64,000 bases of DNA from Natronosalvus caseinilyticus (GCF_017357105.1 NZ_CP071596.1:62001-126000); one strand, 5' to 3'; positions 35,379-53,906 are shown, numbered from the stretch's first letter. The notes: generated from the sequence alone by a model not told the origin. Translations and numbers: made by a program.

Positions 35379-36135
35379 GCGCGTGCGAACCACGGCGGCG
35401 GACGTCCTCTATCCCGTCGGCGCGCTCGCCGTCGGCACCGCGCTCTGGTGGACGACCGTGGCGGTGCTCGAGGTGCCGCCGTTCCTGTTGCCGCCGCCGG
35501 ACGCCGTCGCGGCGCGGCTCGTCGCGAACCCACACCTCTACCTCCGCAACGCGTGGCTCACGCTCGAGAAGGTAGCCTACGGCGGCGGTCTCGGTGCGCT
35601 CGCCGGTTTCGTTCTCGCGATTTTGATCGACTCGCTGCCCTGGTTCCGGCGGTCGGTCTACCCCTACCTCGTGACGGTGCGCGTGGTCCCGAAGATCGCG
35701 ATCGCGCCGCTGCTGTTGATCTATCTCGGCACGGGGATGGGGACCGCGGTCGTGTTCGTCGCGCTCATCGCGTTCTTCCCGCTCGTCCTCAACACGATAG
35801 CCGGACTCGGCCGGACGCCGGAGGAGCAGTTAGACCTGATGCGGTCCGTGAACGCTCATCCGGTCGAGACGTTCGTTCGGGTTCGGCTCCCGTACGCCCT
35901 CCCGGACGTGTTCGCCGGGCTCAAACAGTCCACGACGCTCGCGGTCGTGGGGGCGGTGATCGCCGAGTGGCTCGTCGCCGACGGCGGACTCGGCTTCTTG
36001 ATCCTGCTGGCTGCCGAGAACGTGCGGACCGACACGATGCTCGCGGCGCTACTCGTCCTGCTCGTCGAGGGGCTCGTCCTCTACGGCGGCGTGGTTGCGC
36101 TCCAGCGCGGCGTCGATCGGTACGCCGCCGCTTGA
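35365..36135 (+). CDS. ABC transporter permease, NitT/TauT type (first)
   Basis: The 256-residue permease has six predicted membrane helices. The EAA-like loop reads LDLMRSVNAHPVETFVRVRLP, followed by GLKQSTTLAVVGAVIAEWLV, both typical of SsuC/TauC/ThiX permeases. It begins at 35365 or the next Met at 35371, which overlaps the ATPase stop. It converges with a second permease of the same type 13 bp away, and the two probably form a heterodimer with the single ATPase. Confidence 0.9.
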   Translation: MAMSERVRTTAADVLYPVGALAVGTALWWTTVAVLEVPPFLLPPPDAVAARLVANPHLYLRNAWLTLEKVAYGGGLGALAGFVLAILIDSLPWFRRSVYPYLVTVRVVPKIAIAPLLLIYLGTGMGTAVVFVALIAFFPLVLNTIAGLGRTPEEQLDLMRSVNAHPVETFVRVRLPYALPDVFAGLKQSTTLAVVGAVIAEWLVADGGLGFLILLAAENVRTDTMLAALLVLLVEGLVLYGGVVALQRGVDRYAAA

Positions 36136-36148
36136 CGGGACCGCACGA

Positions 36149-36976
36149 TCACGTCGTCCAGACGCGCCGTTCGAGCAGCGCCGGCAGGAGGTAGAAGCCG
36201 ACGCCGACCAGCGAGAGCACCGCGAGCGCGGCGTAGGACGTCGCGGTCTCGAGCCGCGCCGCGCTGTAGAACACTCGATAGCCGATTCCCGATCGAAGGG
36301 TGACGAACTCCGCGACCACTGCCCCCACGACCGCGAGCGTCGCGGCGATCTTGAGGCCCGCGAAGACGCTGGGGGCGGCCACCGGAACTCGAACCCGCAG
36401 GAACGTCTCGAGCGACGACGCGCCGACGGACGCCGCGAGGTCGAGGAACGCCGATGGCGTCGAGCGCAGTCCGTCGAGCGTCGCGATCGTCATCGGAAAC
36501 AGCGTCAGCGTCGCGACGAGCAGCGCCCTCGCGGGGATTCCCCGCCCGAACCAGAGGAACAACAGCGGTGCGACGGCGATCAGCGGCGCGATGCGCAGCG
36601 CGACGACGTACGGGAGGATCGTCCTGGCAGCCGATCTCGAGTGGATCATCGCGAACGCGAACACCAGTCCGACGGCGGCGCCCGCTCCCAGGCCGAGCGC
36701 GGCCGTCGCGGCGGTGACGGCGGCGTCGGCGAGGAGCGTCGGATACCCTTCGGCGAGCGCCGCGCCGACGTCGATCGGCGAGGGCAGGATGACGGTGGGC
36801 ACGTCGTAAACGACCGTAACTCCCTGCCAGAGCGCGAGCACGAACGCGAATGTTACGAGCGGCGGTCCGCCACGAGCGAGACCGGGACGGACCCGGTCGG
36901 CGACGATCGATCGGCGTTCCGGCGTCGAAATCACCGCTTCCCGGCGGGTGCGCCGTTCGCGGTTCCCGTCGGTCAT
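36149..36976 (-). CDS. ABC transporter permease, NitT/TauT type (second)
   Basis: The 275-residue permease has a charged N-terminus and six helices. EAA-like loop: LDLAASVGASSLETFLRVRVP, then GLKIAATLAVVGAVVAEFVT. It starts MTDGNRERR; the upstream part of the open frame lies inside the binding-protein gene. It follows the binding protein on the minus strand (62 bp gap) and converges with the first permease, so the four transporter subunits are split between two convergent transcription units. Confidence 0.9.
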   Translation of the reverse strand: MTDGNRERRTRREAVISTPERRSIVADRVRPGLARGGPPLVTFAFVLALWQGVTVVYDVPTVILPSPIDVGAALAEGYPTLLADAAVTAATAALGLGAGAAVGLVFAFAMIHSRSAARTILPYVVALRIAPLIAVAPLLFLWFGRGIPARALLVATLTLFPMTIATLDGLRSTPSAFLDLAASVGASSLETFLRVRVPVAAPSVFAGLKIAATLAVVGAVVAEFVTLRSGIGYRVFYSAARLETATSYAALAVLSLVGVGFYLLPALLERRVWTT

Positions 36977-37038
36977 GACTCGAGGGGCGTTCCGGGCCAC
37001 GTCGGGCCGGCCGCCAGCGTCGTCGTTGGCACGCCGAA

Positions 37039-38106
37039 TCACTCCATGACGAGGTCCGCGTACTCGCCGATGTACTCGTACTCGGCGTCGAGGTACTCGT
37101 TCTCCCATACCGATCCGGGGTCGATCTCGTCCGCGAAGAAGTCAGCGGCGGCAAGCGTCTCGTAGGTCGACTCCCACGGTTCGGGCTCGCTCCACCCCCA
37201 GCCGTGCTCGCGAACGGCCTCCGAAATCACGTACTCGGTGCGCATCAGTTCCCACTTCTCGCGCTGGTTCTCGCGGACCTCCTCGAGTTCGGGCTGTGCG
37301 TCGACAACGACGTCGATCGCGTCGTCCGGGTTCTGGGTCGCCCAGACGGCGCCTCGAGCAGTCGCACGCAGGAACGCCCGTACCGCGTCCGGGTCGTTTG
37401 CCGCGAACTCCTCGCTCGTCGCGACGAGGTGGCCGTACGACGGGACTGCCTCCTGAACCGAGAGCGAGTCGATCTCGACCCCCTGCTGTTCGGCGTCGAC
37501 GACGTCGCCGAACACGCCCCCCGCGGCGTCGATTTCGCCCGTGAGCACCTGCTGGACGGTGTCGAATCCGCTGTCGACGTACTCGACGGACTCGCGGACG
37601 CCGTGGTGCTCGAGAAACGCCTCGGTCATCTGGCGGACCATTCCGGGACCGCTACCGACGGTGGTCCCCGCCAGCTGCAAGGGATCCGACAGTCCGTCGA
37701 AGCGCTCCCGGGGCGCGAAAACGACCACCGGGTTGCGCTGCATCACGATACCGACCGCGAGCGGGGAGAGTTCGCGGCTGTTGACGTTGAGGACCTGGTC
37801 GCTGCTCGTGATCGCGAACTCGACGTTCCCCAGCCCGGCTTGCTGGGCCGAAAAGTCCGACCCATCGCCGCTCTCGATGGTCACCTCCTCGATCCCTTCC
37901 GCCTCGTAGAAGCCCCGATCCGCCGCGACGAAGTACGGCGCGTGAAGCCCGCTCGGATTCCAGTTGAGCAACAGTCCGACGCTGTCGACGTCGGGCTCGA
38001 GCGATTCCTGTGCACCCGGACCCCTCTCGGACAGACACCCCGCCAGGACGGTGCTCGCGACTCCTCCCGCCGTCGCCGCGATGATCGTTCGTCTCTCGAG
38101 TCCCAT
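37039..38106 (-). CDS. NMT1/THI5-like ABC substrate-binding lipoprotein
   Basis: The 355-residue binding protein has a signal with lipobox ending at Cys24 (VLAGC). The mature domain opens LLLNWNPSGLHAPYFVAADR and includes GLGNVEFAITSSDQVL, FDTVQQVLTGEIDAAGG and the C-terminal EHGWGWSEPEPWEST. This is the NMT1/THI5/SsuA fold. The WNPSGLHAPY opening is closest in style to pyrimidine (thiamine precursor) or riboflavin-type binders, but the ligand is not certain. It is the first gene of the leftward unit; the upstream 300 bp contain an inverted repeat and repeated TTAAAC(A/G)TTC motifs. Confidence 0.88.
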   Translation of the reverse strand: MGLERRTIIAATAGGVASTVLAGCLSERGPGAQESLEPDVDSVGLLLNWNPSGLHAPYFVAADRGFYEAEGIEEVTIESGDGSDFSAQQAGLGNVEFAITSSDQVLNVNSRELSPLAVGIVMQRNPVVVFAPRERFDGLSDPLQLAGTTVGSGPGMVRQMTEAFLEHHGVRESVEYVDSGFDTVQQVLTGEIDAAGGVFGDVVDAEQQGVEIDSLSVQEAVPSYGHLVATSEEFAANDPDAVRAFLRATARGAVWATQNPDDAIDVVVDAQPELEEVRENQREKWELMRTEYVISEAVREHGWGWSEPEPWESTYETLAAADFFADEIDPGSVWENEYLDAEYEYIGEYADLVME

Positions 38107-38406: not shown

Positions 38407-38709
38407 CTATCGGACGGAGATGTTCCGGTTCTCGGCCGATTCGGAGAACTCGAGCTCGACCTCGAGTTCCCCCTCGCGGTGCTTCGCGAACTCGATCTCG
38501 ACTTCGATCGGCTCGCGGTACTCGAACGGAATCTCCCAGTCAGACGCGCTGATCGTCAGCGACGTGTCCGCTTCGATTTGATCGGCGAGTTCGCGCAGGA
38601 ACGTCGCCGTTTCTCGTCGGGAAAGGTACACCTCGCGCTCGAAGAACCCGTCGGTGATCGTCCGTCGGTCGTCGTCGCGGTCTTCGGGAAGCGTCACACG
38701 GTCGCTCAT
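38407..38709 (-). CDS. Amphi-Trp domain protein
   Basis: The 100-residue acidic protein matches the small amphi-Trp family common in haloarchaea: LSRRETATFLRELADQIEAD in the helix, then TISASDWEIPFEYREPIEVEIEF and a charged beta strand EGELEVELEF. Function is unknown. The start at 38709 places the ATG about 27 bp downstream of a leftward TATA element (CATATTTATG near 38738), which supports a leaderless transcript. Confidence 0.8.
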   Translation of the reverse strand: MSDRVTLPEDRDDDRRTITDGFFEREVYLSRRETATFLRELADQIEADTSLTISASDWEIPFEYREPIEVEIEFAKHREGELEVELEFSESAENRNISVR

Positions 38710-39042
38710 GCAATAGCATAACACGGCTGTTGGCATAAATATGACCGAGTAACCTACGAAAGGATGATGAATTACAAGATAGATGATGTCTAACCACGAG
38801 TCGGTGTCATTCCAGTTGGACGTGGACCAGCGTCGATCCAGTCGGACGTTGGGGAGACGTACGGCCAGCGACCGATTCAGCTGTCTACTGGAGACACGGC
38901 CGATAGTTGACGGTGTGGAGACGTCGAGCGGATCACTCTAGTCCAACCAGTCGGCTCGCCGTTCGTCTCCGTGTAGGGATTTTCAGCGGAGGACTATACC
39001 CGGCATGATAGGTATTTGGTGGCACTCGACGTGCGTGGCCCC
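38710..39042. other. Intergenic region
   Basis: The left edge carries the promoter of the amphi-Trp gene. I see no ORF, RNA fold or repeat of note in the rest; the stretch to 38800 is AT-rich. Confidence 0.5.
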
Positions 39043-40146
39043 ATGGTCGGAGAACTGATCGAGGCGTTCGTCGAATCGCAGGGAGCGTGGTTCGCGTACC
39101 TCGTCCTGCTCGCCGGGGCGGTCGTATTGACCTACAGCGTCGAGAAGCTCATCAGTTATCTCACTCGAGCGGCGCTCGGGCTCGGGGTGTCCGTCTTCGC
39201 CCTCGCCATCGTCTTCACCGGTTTCGAGTTCGACGATACGGCCATCGCGCTCGTCTTCGGGGCAGGTGGGCTGGAGCAGGTTGCGCTCGGAACCGCACTC
39301 GGAACGGGGCTCGCAATCACCGGCATCACGCTAGCTGTCGCCGCGTTGGTCGAGCCCTTTCCGGTCGAGATTCCTCGCGATTACCTCCTGCTGTTCGCGC
39401 TGTCGCCGCTGGTCTTGGCCCCTTTCGTTCTCGTGAGTACGCTGACGATCGTACACGGGTTCGTTCTCACAGCGATTTTCGTCGCCCTGTTCGGATACAT
39501 CGTCTTCCGCGAGTTCCAACGCGATGTCCCAGTCTTCCGGGATTCGGAGATCGCTGCACGGATCGAAGCCGACGGCGGCGTTCCCATCGATCGAATCACT
39601 CTCGAGGACGTGGACATTCGGACGGTACTCGAGGACATTCCGGAAGACCGGTTCGTCGCGGGCCAGCCGTATGAAGGCTTCTTCTGGCTCGGATTATCGC
39701 TGGTAGCGCTGATCGGCGTCGTTGCGGGAGCAACTCTCCTCGAAGCCAGTTCGGAGGTGATCCTCGAATCGTGGGGTATCGAGGAGACAGTCTTCGGCGC
39801 GACCGTAATGACACTCGCGTTGACGTTCGAGAACCTGCTGTTAACGCTCGAACCGGTCCGTCGCGGGATCCCCGAAATCGGGATCGGACACGTCATCGGG
39901 AGCGTGATCTTCTCAGTGACGGCGAACGTCGGAATCATCATGTTCGTCGCGGACGTGGTGATTCCCCGGTCCGTGCTCGTCTTCCACCTCCCCGCGGTGC
40001 TCATCCTCACGGGGCTCGCCGCGTACTTCATTTCGAGCGGGCGAATCCGACGCTGGCACGGCTACGTGCTGGCTGGGCTGTACGTCGCTTACTGGGCGAT
40101 TGCCCTCCTCATTTTCGGCGGTGTCCCCATCCCCGACCCCCTCTGA
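39043..40146 (+). CDS. CaCA-family cation antiporter (Na+/Ca2+ exchanger-like)
   Basis: The 367-residue membrane protein has about ten helices in two inverted halves separated by a cytosolic loop (about 155-205). The alpha-repeat of the first half reads ALGLGVSVFALAIVFTGFEF, and the second ETVFGATVMTLALTFENLLL with GHVIGSVIFSVTANVGIIMF. The usual acidic residues in GNxxGSN/PEx motifs are partly replaced, so ion specificity is uncertain. A related intact gene (41420) and a decayed copy (40664) follow. The ATG at 39043 fits the family better than in-frame TTG/GTG starts upstream. Confidence 0.85.
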   Translation: MVGELIEAFVESQGAWFAYLVLLAGAVVLTYSVEKLISYLTRAALGLGVSVFALAIVFTGFEFDDTAIALVFGAGGLEQVALGTALGTGLAITGITLAVAALVEPFPVEIPRDYLLLFALSPLVLAPFVLVSTLTIVHGFVLTAIFVALFGYIVFREFQRDVPVFRDSEIAARIEADGGVPIDRITLEDVDIRTVLEDIPEDRFVAGQPYEGFFWLGLSLVALIGVVAGATLLEASSEVILESWGIEETVFGATVMTLALTFENLLLTLEPVRRGIPEIGIGHVIGSVIFSVTANVGIIMFVADVVIPRSVLVFHLPAVLILTGLAAYFISSGRIRRWHGYVLAGLYVAYWAIALLIFGGVPIPDPL

Positions 40147-40352
40147 CGTTCTGAAAACGGCGGGGAGGTCTCTGCCCTCCGTTGATTCACCACGCGCAGA
40201 CTGTTACTATCCCACTCGACTTAGTTCGAGGAGTCCCGCGACACGATTGCGGCAACGACCGGGTTCGGCGACCTCGAGTGAGACCATCGCGCACTTCAAA
40301 CAGTCACGGAAACCGGCAAAATACCTTGTATCGCAGGCGTCGAACGACGGTC

Positions 40353-40646
40353 ATGACGCTCATCGACGTACTGGGGAACGGCACGCGACTGAAGATCCTT
40401 CGGAAGCTCTCGCAGGGACCGAAGTACGTCTCTGAACTGACGGAATCGGTCGGAATGGACGGAAAGACTGCGGTACACCACCTCTCGACCCTCGAGAAGG
40501 CCGGGATGGTGAACTGGTACATGCGCGGCAACCGGAAGTACTACGAGTTGAACCGGTCGCTCGAGTTGCGGATCGCTCCGCCGCCCGAACGGACGTTCGT
40601 CCTTCAGACTACGGAGCTGTCTCGGGAAGCGCAGTCGACCGAGTAG
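40353..40646 (+). CDS. ArsR-type winged-helix regulator
   Basis: The 97-residue protein is a compact HTH: LGNGTRLKILRKLSQGPKYV, SELTESVGMDGKTAVHHL (recognition helix) and STLEKAGMVNWYMRGNRKYYEL (wing). It has no cysteine metal site of the classical ArsR type. It lies between two CaCA antiporter genes and tail to tail with the antiporter fragment, so it may control one of them. The frame is open upstream, but homology begins at MTLIDVLGNG. Confidence 0.85.
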   Translation: MTLIDVLGNGTRLKILRKLSQGPKYVSELTESVGMDGKTAVHHLSTLEKAGMVNWYMRGNRKYYELNRSLELRIAPPPERTFVLQTTELSREAQSTE

Positions 40647-40914: not shown

Positions 40915-41419
40915 CGACGGCGCGAACAGCAGGACCGCGACCAGGACAGCAGCGATGCACGGGGTGTCGGCAGCCATAGCCATCCGACACGACAGAGTCC
41001 GACTTAGCCGTTCGGTTCCGTATATCGTCGTTCGTTGAACGCGTATACACGGACGCTCGAGCGTCGATACCCGGCCCCCGAAGCGAGCAGACGGCCTCTC
41101 GACGAAGCGATGGATTTCTCCCTCGACGGGAACGACCGTCGATCGACGAAGACACGAGAATCGCCGCCACTGCAGTCAGTCGGCCCGTGACTCGCGGTGC
41201 GGCCCGCGACCGCCGACGGAGCGCGCAGACTCCGCCTCCGTGACGTCGCCGGAATGTCATATTTCGGATCGTAGGCGATCCCTCACGCGATGCCTTCCTG
41301 CCTCGAAATCGCCACGGCGTCCGGTCGCCGGGCGCGTCCAGCACGCTGGCTACAACGACCCGACCCGCGAGCGGTCGGCGTCCCTAAATTAAGTGGGAGC
41401 TAGCCGTATAGGTGCGTAT
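40915..41419. other. Non-coding stretch between antiporter remnant and antiporter
   Basis: There are about 500 bp without a credible gene. Open frames are Arg/Ser-rich and show no antiporter homology, so the missing part of the pseudogene is not here. A TATA-like ATTAAG near 41391 may serve the gene at 41420. Confidence 0.5.
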
Positions 41420-42520
41420 ATGGTCACGACGGGTGTCGAACTGGCCGTCCTCGTCGGGGCGTTCGTGCTGGGAGTGGCAACCGTCGTTTACTCCGTCGAG
41501 GTGTTCATCGAGGCCGTGGCCCAGAGCGCCGTCTCGCTCGGGATCTCGGGATTCTTTCTCGCGGTCGTCCTCGCCGGCGTCGACCTCGAAAACGCGGTTC
41601 TCGGCGTCACCGCTGCTGCCGTCGAACTGCCGGGACTGGCCCTCGGGACGGTGTTTGGCGAGGCGCTGTTCGTCCTTGCCGTCGCCGTTGGCATCGCGGG
41701 GCTGCTCGTGCCCTTCCGGATGGACGTCCCCCGTATCTATCTCCTGTTGATCCTTGTCGTCCCTCTCCCCGCGTTCGCGCTGTCGGTCGACGGGACGATC
41801 GGCCGCGCCGGCGGAGCGGGGCTGCTCGTCCTGTTCGTCCCCCTGTTGACCGCCATCTACTGGCTCGAGCGCCGGTCGGAGACGACCTACCTGCTCGCAG
41901 AGGAGGTCGAGGGTGTCGTCGACCTCGCGGAGGACCGCTCCGGGGCCGAGCCGACCGGTCAGCCGGACGACGTGGCCGAGCCCGCGGTGGAGCCGGACGG
42001 CGACGGGACGGCGGCCGACGAGTGGCTGGCCGACGTGGACCTCGACGTGGACGAGTTCGTCCCGAGCCTCGAGGGTCGGAGCGGCCGATTCGCACTCGGC
42101 GTCGCCGTCCTCGCGGCCGTCGGCATGACCGTCGGGTCCGGGATCACGGTCGTCAGCGCCGAGGGGATTTTCGTCTCGCTCGGGATCTCGGGACTCGCGT
42201 TCGGCGCGACCGTGCTCTCTTTTATCGCCTCGATCGAGGAACTGGCGTTGACGGTCGAACCGGTCAGGCAGGGTCGGCCGCACCTCGCGGTGGGAAACGT
42301 CGTGGGGAGTACGGTCTTCTACGTGACGGCCAACGTCGGAATCGTCGCCCTGTTGACCCCGATCGACACCGGCGGCGCCGTCATGACCGTCCACTGGCCG
42401 ATCTTCGCGGCGTCGCTGGTCGTCGTCGCGGCCATGCTTGCCCGGGGACGGGTGACCCGGTCCGGCGGGGCGCTCCTGCTCGCGCTCTACGGTGTTTACT
42501 GGATCGCGAACTACGCCTGA
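41420..42520 (+). CDS. CaCA-family cation antiporter (Na+/Ca2+ exchanger-like)
   Basis: The 366-residue paralogue of the protein at 39043 has inverted halves separated by an acidic cytosolic loop (about 160-215). First alpha repeat: AVSLGISGFFLAVVLAGVDL; second: LGISGLAFGATVLSFIASIE with EELALTVEPVRQG and GNVVGSTVFYVTANVGIV. The second half keeps an acidic EE pair in the ion site. I take the ATG at 41420. It may be controlled by the ArsR-type protein upstream, but no operator is evident. Confidence 0.87.
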   Translation: MVTTGVELAVLVGAFVLGVATVVYSVEVFIEAVAQSAVSLGISGFFLAVVLAGVDLENAVLGVTAAAVELPGLALGTVFGEALFVLAVAVGIAGLLVPFRMDVPRIYLLLILVVPLPAFALSVDGTIGRAGGAGLLVLFVPLLTAIYWLERRSETTYLLAEEVEGVVDLAEDRSGAEPTGQPDDVAEPAVEPDGDGTAADEWLADVDLDVDEFVPSLEGRSGRFALGVAVLAAVGMTVGSGITVVSAEGIFVSLGISGLAFGATVLSFIASIEELALTVEPVRQGRPHLAVGNVVGSTVFYVTANVGIVALLTPIDTGGAVMTVHWPIFAASLVVVAAMLARGRVTRSGGALLLALYGVYWIANYA

Positions 42521-42706: not shown

Positions 42707-44440
42707 ATGTCAGAACAAGAGAACACAGGCCGACCGACGGTTCCGGACGTGACGCGGCGGACGCTGCTCCGCTCGGCGGCGATCGGCACCGCGGCCGGTC
42801 TCGGGGCGACGGCGGCGGTAGCACAGGACGACAGCGAAGACGGTTTCCTGCAAGAAGAACCGACCGTCGGACTCGAGACCGTCGCGGAGGAACTGACGGC
42901 GCCGGTCGACTTCCAGGTCGCCGACGAGGAGACCGACCGGCGGTTCGTCGTCGACCAGACCGGCCAGATCTACGTCCACGGCGAGGGCGGCCTCGAGGAC
43001 GAACCGTTCCTCGACATTTCGGGCCGGATGGTCGACCTGATGGAGGACTTCGACGAGCGCGGCCTGCTGGGACTCGCGTTCCACCCCAACTTCGAGGAGA
43101 ACGGCAGGTTCTTCGTGCGCTACAGCGCACCCCCGCGAGAAGTGACGCCCGAGGAGTGGAGCCACACCTTCGTCCTCTCGGAGTTCGAGACGGAGGGCGA
43201 CGACAACGAGTCGGCCGATCCCAACTCCGAGCGGGTGGTCCTGGAGATCGACGAGCCGCAGTCCAACCACAACTCCGGCATGGTCGCGTTCGGTCCGGAC
43301 GGCTACCTCTACGTCTCCACGGGTGACGGCGGCGGTGCGAATGACAACGATGAGGAGCACGTCGAGGACTGGTACGACGAGAACGGGGGCGGCAACGGTC
43401 AGGATACGACCGAGAACCTCCTCGGTGCCGTCCTTCGGATCGACGTCGACGAAGGAACCGGCGAGGGGGAAGACGACGGGACCGAGGGCGACGACGCCGG
43501 CGACGGGACCGACAACCGGACGTACGGTATTCCCGAGGACAATCCCTTCGCCGAGGAAGGGGAGTTCGATTCCGACGAGGGACTTCCGGAGCACTACGCC
43601 TGGGGGCTGCGCAACCCCTGGGGGAGCATGGATTTCCACGGCGATCGGATGCTGCTGGCCGACGTCGGACAGAACCTGTTCGAGGAAGTCAACGCGATCG
43701 AGAAGGGCGGCAACTACGGTTGGAACGTCAAGGAAGGCACTCACTGTTTCAGCACCGAATCGCCAGAGGAGGCGCCCGAGGACGAGGGCTGCCCCGACGA
43801 GACGCCCGACGACGTTCGCGGCGGCGAGGAACTGACCGACCCGGTCATCGAGTACCCGCAGGAGTACGAGGGCGAACCCATCGGTGTCTCGATCATCGGC
43901 GGCCACGTCTACGACGGCGATACCGTCTCGGATCTCGAGGAAACGTACGTCTTCGGCGACTGGAGCGGCCCGCTGTTCCTCGCACGGCCGCCCGAAGGGT
44001 GGCTCGAGGACGAGGGAATGGACGACGAAGGCGACGGGGACGACATCGGAAACGGTAACGAGACCGCCGACACGGACGGGAACGAAACCGACGCCGGTGG
44101 CGACGGAGATATGGATGACAGCGGCGACGGCGAGGACGACCTCTGGCCGATGGAGCGGTTAGTCGTCGAGGCGAACGATCTCGCCGCGGAGGGCGCGCTT
44201 GATCGGAACATCCTCGCGTTCGGCCAGGATTCCGACGGCGAGGTTTACGTACTCACTACCGAGAATACCGGCCCCACCGGCGAGACCGGCCAGGTCCACC
44301 GGATCGTCGAGGCGGATAGCGACGGTGACGCCGGTGCCGAGGGAGAGGATGAAGAAGCCGGGAAAGCGGAGGAAGAGAAAGAAGGTACCGGTAACGAGAC
44401 CGATGACGACTTAGGTGGCAACGAGACCGACGGCGAATAG
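42707..44440 (+). CDS. PQQ-type sugar dehydrogenase (GSDH/Asd family), Tat-exported
   Basis: The 577-residue quinoprotein-like six-bladed propeller should oxidise aldoses outside the cell. Tat signal: TRRTLLRSAAIGTAAG (about 16-31). Propeller landmarks are GLLGLAFHPNFEENG, SNHNSGMVAFGPDGYLYVS (with the catalytic His), YAWGLRNPWGSMDF, LLADVGQNLFEEVN, GGNYGWNVKEGTHCF and GVSIIGGHVYDG. Acidic low-complexity segments interrupt it (about 250-270 and 445-480) and form the C-terminal tail. It converges with the cupredoxin chimera gene. PQQ binding is inferred from family. Confidence 0.88.
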   Translation: MSEQENTGRPTVPDVTRRTLLRSAAIGTAAGLGATAAVAQDDSEDGFLQEEPTVGLETVAEELTAPVDFQVADEETDRRFVVDQTGQIYVHGEGGLEDEPFLDISGRMVDLMEDFDERGLLGLAFHPNFEENGRFFVRYSAPPREVTPEEWSHTFVLSEFETEGDDNESADPNSERVVLEIDEPQSNHNSGMVAFGPDGYLYVSTGDGGGANDNDEEHVEDWYDENGGGNGQDTTENLLGAVLRIDVDEGTGEGEDDGTEGDDAGDGTDNRTYGIPEDNPFAEEGEFDSDEGLPEHYAWGLRNPWGSMDFHGDRMLLADVGQNLFEEVNAIEKGGNYGWNVKEGTHCFSTESPEEAPEDEGCPDETPDDVRGGEELTDPVIEYPQEYEGEPIGVSIIGGHVYDGDTVSDLEETYVFGDWSGPLFLARPPEGWLEDEGMDDEGDGDDIGNGNETADTDGNETDAGGDGDMDDSGDGEDDLWPMERLVVEANDLAAEGALDRNILAFGQDSDGEVYVLTTENTGPTGETGQVHRIVEADSDGDAGAEGEDEEAGKAEEEKEGTGNETDDDLGGNETDGE

Positions 44441-44660
44441 ACGGTACCGAAACCGACGGCAGGGACGACGCGTTCCTGTAGGCCGGGTCACGGATCCGGG
44501 TTCAGCACCCGCCCTCCTCGAGGTTCTTTCTTCGCGAAAACGGAACCGCCGAAGAGCGATCCGTCGCAATGCAGACGGCGAAGAGACGGTGACGGTCGGG
44601 TTAGTCCGCTCGCGGAATCCAGTGAGCAGTCTGCCGGCGGCGGTTCGATCGCCGTTCGAT

Positions 44661-44695
44661 AACCGAACCTCCCCGAGCGGCTCGGGGGATCGGTT
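44661..44695. terminator. Hairpin between convergent genes
   Basis: CCCCGAG and CTCGGGG form a 7-bp stem with loop CGG, extended after a small bulge by AACCGA/TCGGTT. It ends at the stop codon of the leftward gene and could stop transcription from both sides. Confidence 0.6.
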
Positions 44696-46541
44696 ACGGC
44701 GACCACCGGAGAATCGCCGACTCCTCCGGCTGTTCGGGAGCGAAGTTGCAGATGAACAGGTCGTTACACTGGCCGGGGACCGTTCCGAACGCCACGTCCG
44801 AACAGAAGACGAGACCGTCGTCTTCCGTCGCGACCGATTCGGTCTCCCCGTCGGAGGAGACTAGTACGACCGTGCTCTGGAGAATTGCGGCGACGTAGAG
44901 TAGCTCGTCGAGGGAGTGATACGCGAGCCCGTCCGCGCCGTGCACCTCCGGCCCCTCTACGAACGTCTCGCCCTCTCCCGCGCTTCCGTCGTCTTCGACG
45001 GGGACGCGCACGATCCGGCCGGCCTCCTCGCCGTCGACCTCGTCGTCGGTGACCGCGAGGAACACGTCGTCGTCCGGCGTGATGGTGAGCCCGTTGACGC
45101 CGAACATCTCGGTGGAGAGGCGGTCGTCCTCGAACCAGACCGACGCCGCGTTCTCGGGATCGTCCGCGTCGAGCGGGATTTCGTAGACCACCCCGCCGAA
45201 GGATTCCGTGACCAGGAGCCGATCGCGCAGCCGATCGTGCGCAATCCCGTTCGGGACGGCTTCGTCCTCGACGCCGAGGATGGCGAACAGTTCCGCGTCG
45301 GCGGCCTCGTCGCCCTCGACTTCGTTGTCTTCCGCTTCGTCTCCGTTCGCCGCCTCGTCGTCCGTCTCGCGAACCGGCTCGCCGGCCTCGTCGAGCACCC
45401 ACCAGACGTCGCCGATGCCCTGCCCGTTCGCGTCGCCGGCTTCCTCGTCCTGGGCGAAGTAGTAAAGCGGCCAGCCGTTCGCGGCAACCTGCGTCTCCCC
45501 GTCCTCGCGCTCGAACGTCGTTAGTTCAGCCGAAATGTCGTCGCCGGCGGTCGGCTCCTCCTCGGCGGTCAACGGCGGCCAGTTCTCCTCGCAGTCGTCG
45601 TAACACGCGCTCTCCCCTGCGTCCTGTTCGTCCTCGTCGAACATGTAGAGGGTCATTCCCTCCGAGTCGACGAGGATCTCGCCGAACTCGTCGTGGGAAC
45701 TCGTCGCGACGGTAGCGTCAGCTTCGTCCTCGCCGTCGGTCTCGCCCCCGTCGTCCGATTCCGTCCCCGCCGCGTCGCGGGGCAATCGCCAGACGCCCGT
45801 TTCCTCTCCGGATTGCACCGCGGCGTAGGACGTCCCGTCGGGAGCGACCTCGACGCCCAGCGTATCGCCGGGAAGCTCGCCGACCAGTTCGGCGTCGTCG
45901 AGGGACAGTCCCGTCTCCTGGGTCTGCGTCGCGGTGATCCGTCTGATCTCGCCGGCGGTGATGCTGAAGTACAGCGAGCCGTCGGGGTCCACCGCGAGGT
46001 TCTCGGCCGTCGGCTCGCCCGAGATGTCGACGACAGTCTCGATGTCCGGGCCGTCAGTTTCTTCCTCCGCTTCCGCTTCTTCCGCTTCGTCCGCCCCTTC
46101 GTCACCCCCGACGATCTCGACGTCGCCGATCATCGATCCTCTGTGCGGTGCACAGAAGTACGCGACCATCTCCTCGGTGGCTTCGAACTCGACGGTCTGC
46201 GTTTCGCCGCGAGAACTCATGATATCGGTCGAGACAAGTCGTTCGTCCTCCTCGTCGACGATAACGAAATTGTGGGGTTCACCGTCTCCGTTCTCCCAGG
46301 TGACCGTGTACGTCGTACCGGCCTCCAGGACGAGCGTCGGATTCGTCCCCCCGCTGATCTCGTCGGGAGAAGTCCCCTCCCAACCGCCTCTGTCTCCGTC
46401 GAGTTCGATGTCGGTCGAGAGGGCATCCCCCTGGGTCGCGACTGCCGTACCCGCCCCGACCGCGACGCCCGTGGCCGCGGCTGCTTTCATGAACGTTCGC
46501 CTGAGTGAACCGCTCCGGTCGTTTTGGTAGGTCATTGTCAC
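44694..46541 (-). CDS. Cupredoxin / beta-propeller chimera with COG4315 repeats (Tat)
   Basis: The 615-residue protein starts with a Tat signal (LRRTFMKAAAATGVAVG, 13-29). It continues with a plastocyanin-like domain (about 45-145) carrying copper ligands His in PHNFVI and Cys, His, Met in CAPHRGSM. An SMP-30/gluconolactonase-like propeller follows (about 165-265 and 410-615). A secreted-repeat module of the COG4315/PF03640 type (about 275-385: SEGMTLYMFDEDEQ, CYDDCEENWPPL, GWPLYYFAQDE) is inserted into the propeller. It may accept electrons through copper and act on sugar lactones. Start is 46541 or the Met at 46535. Confidence 0.82.
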   Translation of the reverse strand: MTMTYQNDRSGSLRRTFMKAAAATGVAVGAGTAVATQGDALSTDIELDGDRGGWEGTSPDEISGGTNPTLVLEAGTTYTVTWENGDGEPHNFVIVDEEDERLVSTDIMSSRGETQTVEFEATEEMVAYFCAPHRGSMIGDVEIVGGDEGADEAEEAEAEEETDGPDIETVVDISGEPTAENLAVDPDGSLYFSITAGEIRRITATQTQETGLSLDDAELVGELPGDTLGVEVAPDGTSYAAVQSGEETGVWRLPRDAAGTESDDGGETDGEDEADATVATSSHDEFGEILVDSEGMTLYMFDEDEQDAGESACYDDCEENWPPLTAEEEPTAGDDISAELTTFEREDGETQVAANGWPLYYFAQDEEAGDANGQGIGDVWWVLDEAGEPVRETDDEAANGDEAEDNEVEGDEAADAELFAILGVEDEAVPNGIAHDRLRDRLLVTESFGGVVYEIPLDADDPENAASVWFEDDRLSTEMFGVNGLTITPDDDVFLAVTDDEVDGEEAGRIVRVPVEDDGSAGEGETFVEGPEVHGADGLAYHSLDELLYVAAILQSTVVLVSSDGETESVATEDDGLVFCSDVAFGTVPGQCNDLFICNFAPEQPEESAILRWSP

Positions 46542-46676
46542 GTCGTGTTCGTTCGTGTCGTGGGTTCGCTCGATTACTTGGTCAGTAACGTTCGACGCGC
46601 CTGTCGTGATTCGTTATCCGTCGTTTTTGCTGGCCTGGCTGGTTCCATCTGCGTGCAAAAGAGATGTTTTATCGCC

Positions 46677-48047
46677 CTATTCCTCGTCCGACAGCTCGAT
46701 TCCCTCTTGAAGCTGATGCAGGTACACGTCGCCCATGACGATGGGCGGCTCCTGGGTGGGGTGGATACCCTCCCCGCCGTTCTCCGCTTCCTCGCCGTCG
46801 TCTGCTCCGTCCCCGCCGTTCTCCTCGTCGTCCGTTTCTTCCTCGCCGTTCTCCGCTTCCTCCCCGTTCCCCTCTTCGCCCGCTTGCACCTCGCCTGGAT
46901 CTCCCTCTTCGGCTTCCTCTTCCGCTTCTTCGTCCGCCGTCCCTTCGTCGTCTCCGCCGTTCTCCGCTTCCTCGCCGTCGTCCGCTCCGTCTTCCCCGTT
47001 CTCCTCGTCCTCGCCGTTCTCCTCTTCGCCCGCTTGCGCCTCGCCTGGATCCCCCTCTTCGGCTTCCTCTTCCGCTTCTTCGTCCGCCGTCCCCTCGTCG
47101 TCCTCGCCGTTCTCCTCGTCCTCCGCTCCGTCTTCGCCGTTCTCCGCCGCATCTTCCTCGCTTTCGATCTCGATATCGCCGACCATCGTATCGTCGTGAG
47201 GGTCACAGACGTACTGCGCCATCTCGCTGGTGGCCTCGAACTCGAGCGTCTGCGTCTCGCCCTCTTCGGCCATGACGTCAGTCGAGTAGTCGTCGACGAC
47301 CTCGCCGCCCTCGTCTCGGAGTTCGATGTTGTGTCCCGCCCCGTCGGCGTTTTCCCACGTAATTTGGTAGGTTTCTCCTTCGACGAAGACGAGGGTCGGG
47401 TTGGTCTGGCCGCTGATCACGTTGGGCTCGACGCCGGTCCACCCTTCGATCCGCCCCTCGAGGAGGATCTCGTCGGCCTCTTGGAACCCTTCCGCTGCGG
47501 GTTGGGGCTCCGGATACCGTCCGTCCTCTTCGCCAGCGCTCTCGATGAAGGAGAGCGTCTCGTCGCCGGTGGTATCCTGGTGGGCCCACACCTGGTAGAG
47601 CCGCTCTCCTTCCAGGGGTTCCTCGAATTCGATCACGACGTCCTCGTGAGTGCCCGCTTCGAGGAACTCGGAGGCACCTTGAACCTGAACTGCGAGGACT
47701 TGCCCCAGATCGGGCATCGTCTCGAGCGGCAGTTCGTCGTGAGCGGCCACGGGATCCACGAGGGAGACGAAACCACCATCGGGCAGCGTCGCCGATTCGA
47801 TCTCGACGGAGGACCCATCGGTAACCTGGGTGTCGACAACGACCTCGGCGAACTCCGCCTCCGTGCCGCCGTTGCCTTCCTCTTCGTCGGCTGCCTCGTC
47901 CCCATCTTCGTCGGCTTCCCCTTCGTCGTCTCCGACAGCTCGCCCACTCAGCGCGGCGAGTCCCGCGCCCGCCGCGGTCGATCTGAGGACGGTTCGCCGC
48001 AGTACCTTCAGTTCTGTGTCGTCGGCTCGTTGATCGTGCATAGTCAT
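46677..48047 (-). CDS. DUF7282-like and cupredoxin protein with acidic repeat tail (Tat)
   Basis: The 456-residue protein has a Tat signal (LRRTVLRSTAAGAGLAAL, about 16-33). A beta domain resembling DUF7282 follows (about 65-190: VVVDTQVTDGSSVEIESATL, GGFVSLVDP, LYQVWAHQDTTGDETLSF). A plastocyanin-like domain (about 205-300) has ligands His in AGHNIEL and Cys, His, Met in CDPHDDTM. The rest is an acidic tail with two copies of a roughly 50-60 residue unit (DDEGTADEEAEEEAEEGDPG...), ending in a neutral segment with PPIVMGDVYLHQLQEG. It lies 5 bp after the PQQ dehydrogenase gene and is likely its electron acceptor. Confidence 0.82.
   Translation of the reverse strand: MTMHDQRADDTELKVLRRTVLRSTAAGAGLAALSGRAVGDDEGEADEDGDEAADEEEGNGGTEAEFAEVVVDTQVTDGSSVEIESATLPDGGFVSLVDPVAAHDELPLETMPDLGQVLAVQVQGASEFLEAGTHEDVVIEFEEPLEGERLYQVWAHQDTTGDETLSFIESAGEEDGRYPEPQPAAEGFQEADEILLEGRIEGWTGVEPNVISGQTNPTLVFVEGETYQITWENADGAGHNIELRDEGGEVVDDYSTDVMAEEGETQTLEFEATSEMAQYVCDPHDDTMVGDIEIESEEDAAENGEDGAEDEENGEDDEGTADEEAEEEAEEGDPGEAQAGEEENGEDEENGEDGADDGEEAENGGDDEGTADEEAEEEAEEGDPGEVQAGEEGNGEEAENGEEETDDEENGGDGADDGEEAENGGEGIHPTQEPPIVMGDVYLHQLQEGIELSDEE
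46780..47165. repeat. Tandem repeat encoding an acidic tail
   Basis: Two in-frame copies of a unit of about 150-180 bp encode Glu/Asp/Gly/Ala-rich segments beginning DDEGTADEEAEEEAEEGDPG. The copies are highly similar in DNA and differ by short insertions, as expected from slippage. Confidence 0.7.
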
Positions 48048-48052
48048 GATTG

Positions 48053-49774
48053 TCACACCTCGACCGAGTACGCGGTCGCGACGCCGGATTGCTGGGTCGA
48101 GACGAAGACGAACACCTTCTCCTCGTAGGGATCGTGCCAGGCGACGGGCGACCCGTCTACCTCGCCGTCTTCGCCGCCGGGCTGGTCGGCCCACAGCCGT
48201 TCGCCGGTTTCCGTGTCGTAGGCGATGAAGTCCCCGCCGCGGGTTCCGGCGAACGACACGCCGGATGCGGTCGACAGCGTTCCGCCTCGGGCCACGTCGT
48301 CGTGCCAGTCCTGCCACTTGACCTCGCCGCTGACGGGATCGATGCCGGCGACGACGCCGTGGAATCCGTTCCACTCCTCGAGGTACTCGGTCGTCTCGAG
48401 TTCGGCGATGCCGGAGAAGCCCTCACCCGGCGGCTCGTACCACGTGTCTTCCCAGGCCCACCGCCACGGCTCGTTGTGTCCGGTGACGACCATCGTTTGG
48501 CTTTCCTGGTGGTAGGAACTGGGCTGGGGGTTCGTTCCGCCGCCCAACCAGGGCATGATCCACGGCATCTTGTTCAGGTCCTCCTTCCCCGGGATCGTCC
48601 ACATGTTGTGGTGCTGGACGTACTCCTCGCTGCGCTGGACGAGCTGGCCGGTCTCGACGTCGACCGTGTGTACCCAGCCGGACTTCGGGGCCCACGAGGC
48701 GAGTCGCCGCTCCTCGCCGTCGACCTCGGCGGTGTAGACCAGCGCGGGGCTCGGCGAATCGTAGTCCCAGTAGTCGTGGGGCGCGTCCTGGTGGTGCCAC
48801 CGGTACTCGCCGTCCTCGGTGCTCACCGCAACCTTGCCGGCGGAGTAAGGGTTCCACCCCGGTCGGACGGTACCGTACCACGGCGCCGCGTTCGCCGACG
48901 GGATGATGACCTGGTCGGTCTCGACGTCGACGGCCCCGGAGGCCCAGGCGGTGGCGCCGCCGTGCTTCCAGGAGTCGCCGACCCACTCCTCCTCGGGGGT
49001 CATGTTGACCCGCCACTGCGGCTCGCCTTCGAGCGATATCGCGTCGAAGAAGCCGCTGACGCCGTACTCGCCGCCGAAGCTGCCCTTCATGATCTTCCCG
49101 TCGTAGATGAGCGGCGGCCACGACGAAGTGGTCCCGCGGGAGCGCTCCCACATGAGTTCCTCGTGCATGAGGTCGTCGGCGGGCTCGCCCCGGTACGCAC
49201 ACGCGCCGTTGTAGTACCACACGTCCTCGCCCGTGTACCGATCTACGGCCATCACGCCGAGATCGAGGGTGCTCTTTATCACCCAGTCGCAGAACACGGC
49301 CGCGCCGCGCTCGGCGGGGGCGGTGTCGGGACTCGCCCCGACGGTCGGCTCGTAGATGTGCGACCAGAGGAACTCGCCGGTTCGTGCATTCAGGGCGTGT
49401 AGTTCGTCGGGCCCGAACGTGAGGTACATGATCGGGGGATCGCCCTGGACGATTATCGGCGAGTTCTGGTACGCCGTCATCGGCGGATCCCCGTGCTCGA
49501 ACTCCCACTCGACCTCGAGGTCGCCGACGTTCTCCGGATTCAACTCGTCACCTGGATACCGGCGCTGGCTGTCGTAGGCGCCCCCCATGATCAGCCAGTT
49601 GTCGGTCCGCTCGCCCGTTTCGTGGAGGTGTTCTTCCGTGATCTCTCCCTCGGTGATCTGATCGGTGTCGAACTGTTCAATATTCGACTCGCCGGGTTTC
49701 TCTTGGTACGGGCCCTCTCGGATGACCTCAACGTCCTCCCTGTGGTCGATCTCGTTTTGTAGCATTCGGTTCAT
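48053..49774 (-). CDS. PQQ-dependent dehydrogenase-like eight-bladed propeller, no signal peptide
   Basis: The 573-residue protein matches the quinoprotein alcohol/glucose dehydrogenase propeller. It has DNWLIMGGAYDSQRRYPGDE at the entry, tryptophan-docking repeats (ALNARTGEFLWSH, AVDRYTGEDVWYYN, GIDPVSGEVKWQDW, AYDTETGERLWAD) and the catalytic-Asp segment APHDYWDYDSPSPAL. The vicinal disulfide of methanol dehydrogenases is reduced to a single Cys (AVFCDWV). The second Asp of WDYD occurs in lanthanide XoxF-type enzymes but also in membrane glucose dehydrogenase (WDMD), so it does not settle the metal. No signal or membrane helix is visible, so export would need a partner. Confidence 0.85.
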   Translation of the reverse strand: MNRMLQNEIDHREDVEVIREGPYQEKPGESNIEQFDTDQITEGEITEEHLHETGERTDNWLIMGGAYDSQRRYPGDELNPENVGDLEVEWEFEHGDPPMTAYQNSPIIVQGDPPIMYLTFGPDELHALNARTGEFLWSHIYEPTVGASPDTAPAERGAAVFCDWVIKSTLDLGVMAVDRYTGEDVWYYNGACAYRGEPADDLMHEELMWERSRGTTSSWPPLIYDGKIMKGSFGGEYGVSGFFDAISLEGEPQWRVNMTPEEEWVGDSWKHGGATAWASGAVDVETDQVIIPSANAAPWYGTVRPGWNPYSAGKVAVSTEDGEYRWHHQDAPHDYWDYDSPSPALVYTAEVDGEERRLASWAPKSGWVHTVDVETGQLVQRSEEYVQHHNMWTIPGKEDLNKMPWIMPWLGGGTNPQPSSYHQESQTMVVTGHNEPWRWAWEDTWYEPPGEGFSGIAELETTEYLEEWNGFHGVVAGIDPVSGEVKWQDWHDDVARGGTLSTASGVSFAGTRGGDFIAYDTETGERLWADQPGGEDGEVDGSPVAWHDPYEEKVFVFVSTQQSGVATAYSVEV

Positions 49775-49777
49775 TGT

Positions 49778-50731
49778 TCACACCTCCTCGTGCGCTTCGT
49801 CCAGCGGTTTTCGCATTTCGTCGTCGATCCAGGCGATGTCCTCGGCGAGGAACTCCTGACCGATTATCATGATCGCAGCGCCTACAGTGATCAATGTCGT
49901 CAGGCCCTCGTCGCCGGCCGTCCCCTCAGCGAGGCGTCTGGCAGCGTCGCCCATGAGGTAGGCGCCGGCGAGCATCGACTTGACGTCCCAGACGCCGCGA
50001 TTGATCATCTCGTCGGTCACAAGTACCTCGTGTTGCCAGATCCACCAGTCGAGTCCGTCGATCCACAGCAGCGCCCCCTCCATCGCGCGGTGGTGCAGCG
50101 GCGCGACGGTCTCGTAGGCGACACCTTCGTCGTAATCGTCCTCGGCTTCGACCGGCGGGTAGTTGGGCGTCGGCTGCCACCACGACAGTTGCTCGCGGGC
50201 GGTGACAATGTTCGTCACGACAGCGAGTTGCTCGTCGTCGGGGAATCCGAGTTCGGACAACATCCCGGGTAACGAGTCCATTCGGAGCAACTGTCTCGTG
50301 GTCGCGTGGATATGTTCGGATGTGAACGCCGGGAGGTTTTCCTCGGCGCTCTCGAAGAACCCCGTCTCCACCAGGTGATCGTTGATCCGCCAGGCCGCCG
50401 GCGTCAGGTCCTGGTACGGCGTCTCTCCGTACTCCGGGACGCCGAGATTGCGGAGTTCAGGAATCCGCTCGAACTCGTCTTTCAACTCCGACAACTCCGT
50501 GGCGAGCAACGCTGCGTCGAGCGGTTCGGAGAGTCCCTCCTCAACTTTCCGACCCATCGCCGCTAATTCATCCGTCGCCTCGTCTTCGACTTCCGACCGA
50601 AGGTCGGCGAGGACGGGCCCGGAAACTGTCACGGGCGTCGAGATCCCTAGCGCCTCCTGGAATTGACGGCGATTAGCTTCGTTTACGACCCCATAACTGT
50701 ATCTTTTCTGAGGATTGGTACCGTAGGCCAT
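49778..50731 (-). CDS. Unrecognised 317-residue protein, first gene of the quinoprotein operon
   Basis: I do not recognise this family. The protein is mostly helical, with no signal peptide; it contains several Trp-rich stretches (EQLSWWQPTPNYPP, DGLDWWIWQHEVLV), pairs of His (SEHIHATT, APLHHRAMEG) and one hydrophobic segment near the C-terminus (LTTLITVGAAIMIIGQEFLA). Its stop lies 3 bp before the PQQ-dehydrogenase start, so co-expression is near certain. The Tyr/Trp/His content would suit a redox or assembly partner, but that is speculation. A TATA element (TTACTAATACG) lies about 28 bp upstream. Confidence 0.72.
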   Translation of the reverse strand: MAYGTNPQKRYSYGVVNEANRRQFQEALGISTPVTVSGPVLADLRSEVEDEATDELAAMGRKVEEGLSEPLDAALLATELSELKDEFERIPELRNLGVPEYGETPYQDLTPAAWRINDHLVETGFFESAEENLPAFTSEHIHATTRQLLRMDSLPGMLSELGFPDDEQLAVVTNIVTAREQLSWWQPTPNYPPVEAEDDYDEGVAYETVAPLHHRAMEGALLWIDGLDWWIWQHEVLVTDEMINRGVWDVKSMLAGAYLMGDAARRLAEGTAGDEGLTTLITVGAAIMIIGQEFLAEDIAWIDDEMRKPLDEAHEEV

Positions 50732-51679: not shown

Positions 51680-51896
51680 GAGACGGGTTCCGTCGCGTTT
51701 AGCGGTGACGTCCGGGCTCGAAAAAGGCAGCGTCGCTCCCAGGGGCTCGACCGCGACCCCGTCGCGTACCGTCCGAGTGACGGCACATCTCCCTCGACGC
51801 CGGTGCGTATCTCCTACGGATAAGCAACCCATCTCGAACAGGCACGTCCTTCCGAAACCGTGGCCCGTTTACGTTTCGAAACGGTTCGACCATGTA

Positions 51897-53906
51897 GTGA
51901 GTACCGAGGACGAGACCCCGTTCGACGCCTACCGGGAGCACGTCGATCGACCGCTCTGGCGGCTCTTTCGCGAGTACGGACCCGGTCGACTGAGCTGGTT
52001 CGGCATCGGCATGGTCGCCAACTTCCTGGCCCGAATGGCGAGTCTGGTGCCGCCGCTGGTGCTGGGGGCGGCCATCGACGCCATCTTCGTCGGCGAGGGA
52101 GCCTACTCGCTGCCGGTTGTCCCCGACGCGTGGCTCCCGACGGAGAGCCTCGAGCAGTTCTGGTTCTCGATCACGGCCATCGCCGGCGCGTTCGTCGCCG
52201 TCGCCCTCTTCACCTGGATCTACGGGGTGTCGGCGAACCTCTTCGCCCACAGCGTCATGCACGCTGTCCGGGTCGACTGTTTCCGGAAGATGCAGAACCT
52301 CGACATGACCTTCTTCGACGACAAGCAGACCGGGGAGGTCATGGCCGTCCTCAACAACGACACCCAGAACTTAGAGCGATTCCTGGACAACGCCCTGATG
52401 AACTCCGCCCGGTTGCTCGTGATGGTCGGGGGCATCGCGGGCGTCCTCTTCTACCTGAACTGGCAGCTGGCGCTCGTCACGCTCGTCGCGGTGCCGGTGA
52501 TGTTCGCCTTCACGCTGTGGTTCATGCGCGTCATCGAGCCCCGATACGTCCGCCAGCGGTCCTCTGTCGGCTGGCTCAACACCCGCCTCGAGAACAGCCT
52601 CTCGGGGATGGACCTGACGAAGACGACCGCCAGCGAGGAGTACGAGGTCTCGCGGGTTCGGAAGGCCTCGAAGCGGCTGTTCGACGACACGATGGCCGTC
52701 CTCAAGCTCTCGTACGTCTACCGACCGGGGATGGAACTGCTCGCCGGCCTCGCTTTCGCCGCGACCTTCCTCGTCGGCGGCCTCTGGCTTACGAACGGCG
52801 CGGCGCCGGGCCCGTTCACGGGAACGCTCTCGGTTGGTGACTTCGTCACCTTCCTCTTTCTGACCCAGCGGATCGTCGCCCCGCTCGCGGAGGTCTCGAA
52901 CATCGTCGACCAGTACGAGAACGCGAAGGCCTCGAGCGAGCGCGTGTTCGGTCTGCGAGACATCCCCGTCTACGTCTCCGACCCCGACGACCCCGAGCCG
53001 CTCGAGGACGTCGCGGGCCGCGTCGAATACGACGACGTGACGTTCAGTTACGCGACCGGTGAGCGGCGGGCCATCGGTGGGGACGACACGTCGGGTGACG
53101 GTCTCGAGGCATCCGGCGACGGGAGTCCCGGAAACGATGGTGGCGGCGATAGCGACGGCAACGGTAGCGACGGCCAAGACGACGCAGAAATCGTCGTCGA
53201 GGACGTTTCGTTCACGGCGGAACCGGGCGACACCGTCGCCCTGGTCGGACCGACCGGCGCCGGCAAGTCGACCGTACTCAAACTCCTCCTGCGGCTCTAC
53301 GACGTCGACGACGGCGAGATACGGGTCGACGGCCACGACGTCCGCGACGTTCGCCTCGCGGACCTCCGGGAGTCCGTCGGCTACGTCAGCCAGGACACGT
53401 TCCTCTTCGACGGCACCATCGCGGACAACGTCCGGTACGGCCACTTCGACGCCTCCGACGAGGCCGTCCGCGAGGCCGCGAAGGCCGCCCAGGCCCACGA
53501 GTTCATCGAGGAGCTCCCCGAGGGCTACGAGACGCGGGTGGGCGAGCGCGGCGTCAAACTCTCGGGCGGCCAGCGCCAGCGGATCGCCATTGCCCGGACG
53601 GTCCTGCAGGACCCCGAGATCCTGATTCTGGACGAGGCGACGAGCGCCGTCGACACGAAGACCGAACTCCTGATCCAGCGCTCGATCGACCGCCTGACGG
53701 AAGGACGAACGACTCTCGCCATCGCCCACCGCCTCTCGACGATTCGCGAGGCGGACGCGATCCTCGTCCTCGAGGGCGGTCGGGTCGTCGAACGCGGCGA
53801 CCACGAGGAGCTGCTCGCGGCCGGCGGCCGATACGCGACGCTGTGGGAAGCGCAGGCCGGGACGCTCGATGAGGCGCTCGAGGCGATGGCCGACGGCGGG
53901 GACTGA
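51897..53906 (+). CDS. ABC exporter (MsbA/multidrug type), fused membrane and ATPase domains
   Basis: The 669-residue half-exporter has six membrane helices (about 40-340) and a nucleotide-binding domain with Walker A GPTGAGKST, Q-loop YVSQDTFLFDG, signature LSGGQRQRIAIART, Walker B ILILDEATSAVD and H-loop IAHRLST. It acts as a dimer exporting lipids or drugs. A Gly/Asp/Ser-rich insertion of about 45 residues interrupts the first strands of the ATPase domain (after FSYATGERRAIGG). I use the GTG at 51897, where family homology (DAYREHVDRPLWRLF) begins; the frame is open from 51537. Confidence 0.92.
   Translation: MSTEDETPFDAYREHVDRPLWRLFREYGPGRLSWFGIGMVANFLARMASLVPPLVLGAAIDAIFVGEGAYSLPVVPDAWLPTESLEQFWFSITAIAGAFVAVALFTWIYGVSANLFAHSVMHAVRVDCFRKMQNLDMTFFDDKQTGEVMAVLNNDTQNLERFLDNALMNSARLLVMVGGIAGVLFYLNWQLALVTLVAVPVMFAFTLWFMRVIEPRYVRQRSSVGWLNTRLENSLSGMDLTKTTASEEYEVSRVRKASKRLFDDTMAVLKLSYVYRPGMELLAGLAFAATFLVGGLWLTNGAAPGPFTGTLSVGDFVTFLFLTQRIVAPLAEVSNIVDQYENAKASSERVFGLRDIPVYVSDPDDPEPLEDVAGRVEYDDVTFSYATGERRAIGGDDTSGDGLEASGDGSPGNDGGGDSDGNGSDGQDDAEIVVEDVSFTAEPGDTVALVGPTGAGKSTVLKLLLRLYDVDDGEIRVDGHDVRDVRLADLRESVGYVSQDTFLFDGTIADNVRYGHFDASDEAVREAAKAAQAHEFIEELPEGYETRVGERGVKLSGGQRQRIAIARTVLQDPEILILDEATSAVDTKTELLIQRSIDRLTEGRTTLAIAHRLSTIREADAILVLEGGRVVERGDHEELLAAGGRYATLWEAQAGTLDEALEAMADGGD

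Follow-up and report, generated by a model that had tools for sequence, protein, structure and literature searches.

What does the PQQ-dehydrogenase-like gene at this haloarchaeal locus belong to, and how would its product obtain a cofactor for which its host carries no PqqC? The original prediction, made on a 64,000-nucleotide stretch of Natronosalvus caseinilyticus DNA (the window), was an extracellular module of five genes (A to E) in which sugars or alcohols are oxidized with PQQ, electrons pass to blue copper, and a lactone is hydrolyzed. The features of the window considered here are listed below.

49778-50731, minus strand: gene E, orphan all-helical protein of 317 aa, with an N-terminus (NRRQFQEALGISTPVTVSGPVLA) that is a degenerate Tat-like signal
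48053-49774, minus strand: gene D, PQQ-alcohol-dehydrogenase-like 8-bladed propeller of 573 aa, without signal peptide and without vicinal Cys-Cys
46677-48047, minus strand: gene C, Tat signal, DUF7282 and one cupredoxin domain
44694-46541, minus strand: gene B, Tat signal, cupredoxin, two Lipoprotein_15 repeats and a weak SMP-30-like propeller; accessory
42707-44440, plus strand: gene A, GSDH-type propeller (glucose/sorbosone dehydrogenase family) with a Tat-like N-terminus
41393-42520, plus strand: Na+/Ca2+ exchanger family protein (PF01699)
40182-40646, plus strand: ArsR-family helix-turn-helix regulator, start probably near 40353
39016-40146, plus strand: second Na+/Ca2+ exchanger family member, with an uncertain start
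38407-38736, minus strand: Amphi-Trp domain protein
37039-38106, minus strand: ABC substrate-binding lipoprotein (SBP) of the NMT1/THI5 family, nearest solved structure 3ix1
36149-37108, minus strand: ABC permease (BPD_transp_1)
35260-36135, plus strand: ABC permease (BPD_transp_1)
34392-35378, plus strand: ABC ATPase of nitrate/sulfonate/taurine type, true start probably near 34620
33356-34630, plus strand: protein with an NMT1 domain preceded by a long N-terminal region, candidate ligand-sensing regulator

Genes E, D, and C follow one another on the minus strand with gaps of 3 bp (E-D) and 5 bp (D-C), exactly as first described; gene B comes after a larger gap and gene A is on the plus strand. 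All five genes are present and their coordinates were confirmed, as were the predicted His/Cys/His/Met ligands, with the same set (His ... C-x2-H-x3-M) in the single cupredoxin domain of B and in that of C. The lactonase-like propeller, listed beside the cupredoxins in the original prediction, is part of the cupredoxin gene B and no gene of its own. Its match to SMP-30/gluconolactonase-like propellers is weak (1.4e-6) and is split by the two Lipoprotein_15 (COG4315-type) repeats inserted between its parts, which the original prediction had left unmentioned. Gene A matched the GSDH family (PF07995) with 81.6 bits. The part of the window from 33.3 to 42.5 kb, which lies outside the coordinates of the original prediction, belongs to the same conserved module as E-D; its ABC importer and exchanger genes were thus overlooked in that prediction. 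An ABC multidrug-type exporter adjoins E both in the window (51861-53906) and in Natrialba sp. SSL1 (L042 5818-7743).

The conserved core of the locus is the E-D pair. E lay directly upstream of D on the same strand for 97 of the 98 strong D genes in 382 Halobacteria genomes, and the sole D without E may be an artefact of a search that kept the best-scored candidates per genome only. The order E then D was also found in all 36 loci examined (the window plus 35 named haloarchaeal loci), mostly with gaps of -8 to 16 bp. E itself was present in 71 of 391 Halobacteria genomes scanned, and a pattern search through the genomes of approximately 85,000 species of bacteria and archaea gave matches in haloarchaea only. 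The distance matrices of E and D were correlated with r = 0.88, a value to which shared organismal descent adds and which none of 999 permutations reached. An apparent E-D fusion in one genome (an open frame of 900 aa) was ruled out, as a stop codon lies between the two genes. The remaining three genes had been expected to co-occur with these two across haloarchaea, but only E-D is invariant: GSDH genes were found nearby in 16 of the 36 loci and cupredoxin genes in roughly one quarter; the three-part cupredoxin-lactonase fusion of gene B was seen in none of the other E-D loci. GSDH, cupredoxins, and the lactonase-like domain are thus variable extras.

D is genuinely related to the PQQ alcohol dehydrogenases, and its metal and PQQ residues are intact. 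It matched the PQQ beta-propeller family in Pfam (PF01011, 6e-40) and, in NCBIfam, the PQQ alcohol dehydrogenase model TIGR03075 with 263 bits, which is below the cut-off of 480 bits for that model. The AF2 model (pLDDT 83.6) has the 8-bladed PQQ propeller fold, and its best structure match was PedH (6zcw; Z 39.8, rmsd 2.3 over 494 residues, 29% identity). The metal ligands of PedH are Glu199, Asn281, Asp323, and Asp325 (PMC11845868), and in the alignment with PedH these correspond to E236, N295, D337, and D339 of D, including the D-x-D motif. All four residues, D337 being the catalytic Asp, were invariant in 35 of 35 aligned haloarchaeal D sequences (the window and L036-L069, with L035 omitted on account of its broken D frame). 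Likewise invariant in this alignment, which spans two clades, was a Lys at the site normally held by Arg or Lys. The vicinal Cys-Cys of classical PQQ alcohol dehydrogenases is absent from D of the window and its clade and present in the sister clade. It is also lacking in thaumarchaeal PQQ enzymes (PMC7300363); its loss therefore weakens, without overturning, the case for membership of D in this family. A third, divergent D group (L081-L088, approximately 35% identity) has a Tat-bearing E upstream and keeps D-x-D in most members; its Glu ligand motif was not matched by a simple pattern, such patterns being too narrow to judge this ligand.

D is best read as a haloarchaeal branch of PQQ-dependent alcohol/aldehyde dehydrogenases whose metal is probably either calcium or a lanthanide. 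D-x-D is the accepted lanthanide signature. Membrane glucose dehydrogenases also contain it, although in these the use of a lanthanide is a prediction only (PMC11996626), and the motif is therefore no proof of lanthanide use in D. It is quite possible that D depends on calcium, that D-x-D is unused as a lanthanide site, and that the exchangers serve calcium supply, an alternative that would fit the co-distribution of the Na/Ca-exchanger family with D. An exchanger (E <= 1e-20) was found in 57 of 66 D genomes vs 4 of 316 others (phi 0.88, with a p value that ignores shared ancestry). Against this reading, every aligned member has the second Asp, at a position where Ser or Thr is usual in ExaA/PedE-type calcium enzymes (PMC11845868).

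Searches with gene E in Pfam, NCBIfam, and the PDB sequences gave no family. Its model (pLDDT 88, pTM 0.88) is all-helical, and searches of this model against the PDB gave nothing convincing, with a best Foldseek E-value of 0.068 and a best VIA Z score of 6.8 on a four-helix arrangement. Both values are too weak for a claimed relation, and assignment of E to a known fold was dropped. The small subunit of gluconate dehydrogenase (Gluconate_2-dh3) did not appear among the Pfam and Foldseek matches of E, which excludes nothing.

Differences in the N-terminus of E are accompanied by differences in the neighboring genes. No signal peptide was found among the D N-termini read, whereas E had a strict RRxFL Tat motif in 20 of the 36 loci. 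Pfam recognized a TAT_signal on 11 of 29 E proteins, and all seven E sequences read from the third group bear a Tat motif. In the window the motif is degenerate and in its nearest relatives it is missing, so that the extracellular placement originally proposed for D and E is tentative. The Tat state of E changes only twice on the D tree; Tat-plus lineages surround both Tat-minus groups, and two losses are therefore the simplest reading. One of these groups is near ferredoxin and aldehyde:ferredoxin oxidoreductase (AOR) genes and the other is the sub-clade of the window. A 2Fe-2S ferredoxin was nearby in 10 of 16 Tat-minus loci vs 0 of 20 Tat-plus loci, and GSDH in 1 of 16 vs 15 of 20, an association that rests on few independent lineages given the two changes on the tree. 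Within the window's sub-clade, a Tat-DUF7282 protein directly followed D in 5 of 5 members, with a cupredoxin domain in 4 of 5. The different neighbors of the two groups, ferredoxin and AOR in one and Tat-DUF7282 in the other, suggest that acceptor genes, and perhaps the carrier, switched when E lost its signal. As E was retained after loss of the motif, it must do more than carry.

AOR genes were seen near Tat-less E-D pairs in L053-L055, L059, L064, and L065, an arrangement that suggests an alcohol-to-acid route within the cell. In Natrialba sp. SSL1 the C homologue that follows D (L042 10715-11323) has kept its Tat signal and DUF7282 and is without a cupredoxin domain, which disfavors a role for C as electron acceptor alone.

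Genes for an NMT1/THI5-type importer, Na/Ca exchangers, an ArsR-type regulator (near E-D in 19 of 36 loci), and an amphi-Trp protein (16 of 36) recur around E-D. The importer in the window has SBP, permease, and ATPase. The SBP (E <= 1e-40) was present in 66 of 66 D genomes vs 3 of 316 others (phi 0.97; Fisher p = 4e-71, which ignores shared ancestry), and close SBP orthologues lay within 15 kb of a D in 41 of 44 cases. Across genomes, the association with D is thus far stricter for the importer and the exchanger than for GSDH or cupredoxin. Six congeners of the window species (G045, G046, G250, G253, G277, and G282) are without E, D, SBP, and exchanger alike, and several D genes in relatives lie on large plasmids. 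The module therefore appears to be gained and lost as a unit and, with none of the six congeners carrying any of the four genes, the whole of it is accessory. NMT1-domain proteins with a long N-terminal region were noted in the window (33356-34630), in L051 (5857-7134), and in L068 (5768-7075). In the homologues this region ends in GRPPKxW and resembles a winged helix, and Pfam sees the NMT1 part only; the proteins may be one-component regulators whose sensor domain is of the binding-protein kind.

PqqC was not found in the window's genome or, at the curated cut-off, in 382 Halobacteria; the search control on an Azospirillum plasmid gave 359.6 bits. Four radical-SAM matches to PqqE in the window's genome were far below cut-off, and similar matches in all controls mark them as generic. 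The statement that the window has no PQQ biosynthesis genes therefore extends to the genome (no PqqC, and no PqqE over cut-off) and, for PqqC, to the 382 Halobacteria. It follows that D, if it uses PQQ, must draw it from outside or by another route. Use of PQQ made by others is common in bacteria (PMC12124388).

The NMT1/THI5-type importer may bring in PQQ. Its SBP has as nearest solved relative the formylaminopyrimidine-binding protein 3ix1 (E-value 2e-20), which is of the ThiY type and has no tie to a quinoprotein. ThiY-type proteins serve in salvage of thiamine precursors. Since the ligands of SBP relatives include pyrimidines, sulfonates, and comparable small molecules, the importer could instead carry the substrate of D, or take up its product. 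This alternative, which we regard as somewhat unlikely, would account for an importer that always accompanies D, and for the Tat-minus lineage, in which D would be cytosolic and beside AOR and ferredoxin. The importer was also kept in Tat-plus lineages (L051, L052, and L068), however, where D should act outside the cell. Import of PQQ by the SBP is favored because it explains retention in both Tat-plus and Tat-minus lineages.

A further alternative is that D has kept the fold without PQQ use, as an "empty" quinoprotein or one with another cofactor, as has been proposed for the acidobacterial non-PQQ homologues of TIGR04528 (acido-empty-quinoprotein). D matched this model with 174 bits (cut-off 650), the Cys-Cys has been lost in the window's clade, a divergent third D group exists, and PQQ biosynthesis was not found in the 382 Halobacteria, all of which would agree with an empty site. 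The score for TIGR03075 is higher, however, and the invariance of the metal ligands and the Lys over two clades is unexpected for an empty site, while reliance on PQQ from other organisms has the bacterial precedent cited above; we therefore consider this alternative unlikely. With the metal and PQQ residues of D intact and PqqC absent from the 382 Halobacteria, both the assignment to PQQ and the idea of scavenging, which were part of the original prediction, are strengthened.

That the five genes form one extracellular pathway, in which the GSDH protein and D oxidize sugars or alcohols with PQQ, B and C accept the electrons, and the propeller of B hydrolyzes the lactone, is very unlikely and unsupported as a conserved system: it would fit the gene families, the tight E-D-C spacing, the Tat-like N-termini on A, B, and C, and the GSDH or cupredoxin genes often beside E-D in Tat-plus lineages, but the genes do not travel together, lactone hydrolysis rests on one weak and interrupted domain match, and neither D nor E has a clear signal in the window's sub-clade.

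The observed pairing, co-distribution, ligand conservation, absence of PqqC, and pattern of Tat gain and loss are best explained, with a probability of roughly 50%, by D being a dehydrogenase that uses scavenged PQQ and has an obligate partner in E, which is mostly a Tat carrier, with the NMT1/THI5 system as a candidate PQQ importer. In this scheme the active site of D keeps the lanthanide ligand set of PedH/XoxF, and E would be an obligate helical subunit that binds D while D folds. In most lineages the Tat signal of E would carry D out of the cell, in the hitch-hiker manner of the FAD glucose dehydrogenase gamma and alpha subunits. Tat exports folded enzymes. This, and the lack of a known PQQ route in the haloarchaea searched, suggest that PQQ would be imported and loaded in the cytosol. 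The leading candidate for this import, of PQQ itself or of a similar ligand, is the NMT1/THI5-type ABC importer, while the exchangers may set calcium or lanthanide levels. Outside the cell, electrons from the putative substrate would be taken by a cupredoxin or a carrier of similar kind, and in the Tat-lost lineage with ferredoxin and AOR neighbors by ferredoxin. In the sub-clade of the window the signal of E has decayed and D is followed, at a distance of 5 bp, by a Tat-bearing C, which may therefore serve as acceptor or as a new carrier. A more specific version has haloarchaea without PQQ synthesis running a lanthanide-PQQ alcohol dehydrogenase with E as a new Tat hitch-hiker for its export and with supply by a dedicated, hitherto unrecognized NMT1/THI5 PQQ importer and the exchangers, two lineages having shifted the enzyme to a different compartment or carrier, one of them now amid ferredoxin and AOR genes; taken whole, this is quite improbable.

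The nearest known kinds to the E-D module are the PedH-type dehydrogenases and the thaumarchaeal PQQ enzymes. D shares with PedH/ExaF, the lanthanide-dependent PQQ ethanol dehydrogenase of Pseudomonas putida, its fold, four metal ligands, and D-x-D, and differs in its low identity, the lack of a signal peptide and (in the window's clade) of Cys-Cys, the absence of a pqq operon, and the orphan partner E. The PQQ dehydrogenases of heterotrophic marine Thaumarchaea are archaeal, are without Cys-Cys like D of the window, have D-Y-D in some cases, and have plastocyanin in their predicted electron transport, a further likeness to the window's module; the thaumarchaeal genomes, however, encode PQQ synthase, 15 of the 21 enzymes have their own signal peptide, and a partner like E is not described there (PMC7300363). 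FAD glucose dehydrogenase likewise joins a signal-less catalytic subunit (alpha) to a small Tat-bearing helical hitch-hiker (gamma) (PMC6719666), but it is a flavoenzyme and not a quinoprotein, and E is larger, without detectable relation to gamma, and Tat-less in some lineages. PqqU/PqqT of Gram-negative bacteria resemble the proposed system in that PQQ users rely on uptake or recapture (PMC12124388); these are described as a TonB receptor and another binding protein, which sets them apart from the NMT1/THI5 ABC importer that is the candidate here. What distinguishes the E-D module from these known kinds is its obligate orphan partner, the class-wide absence of PQQ synthesis, and the near-perfect link to one importer, and it was undescribed in the open-access literature searched on haloarchaeal PQQ and quinoprotein systems.

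Lanthanide enzymes are known from bacteria, with predictions in marine thaumarchaea. In archaea, PQQ enzymes are said to be rare (PMC7300363). The haloarchaeal quinoprotein family described here is conserved and has kept its full lanthanide-type active site even though its hosts are without PQQ biosynthesis, and the family is linked to a single uptake system. Through this link to the importer, PQQ acquisition in archaea becomes directly testable, and the obligate orphan E would be a new kind of quinoprotein subunit for maturation or export.
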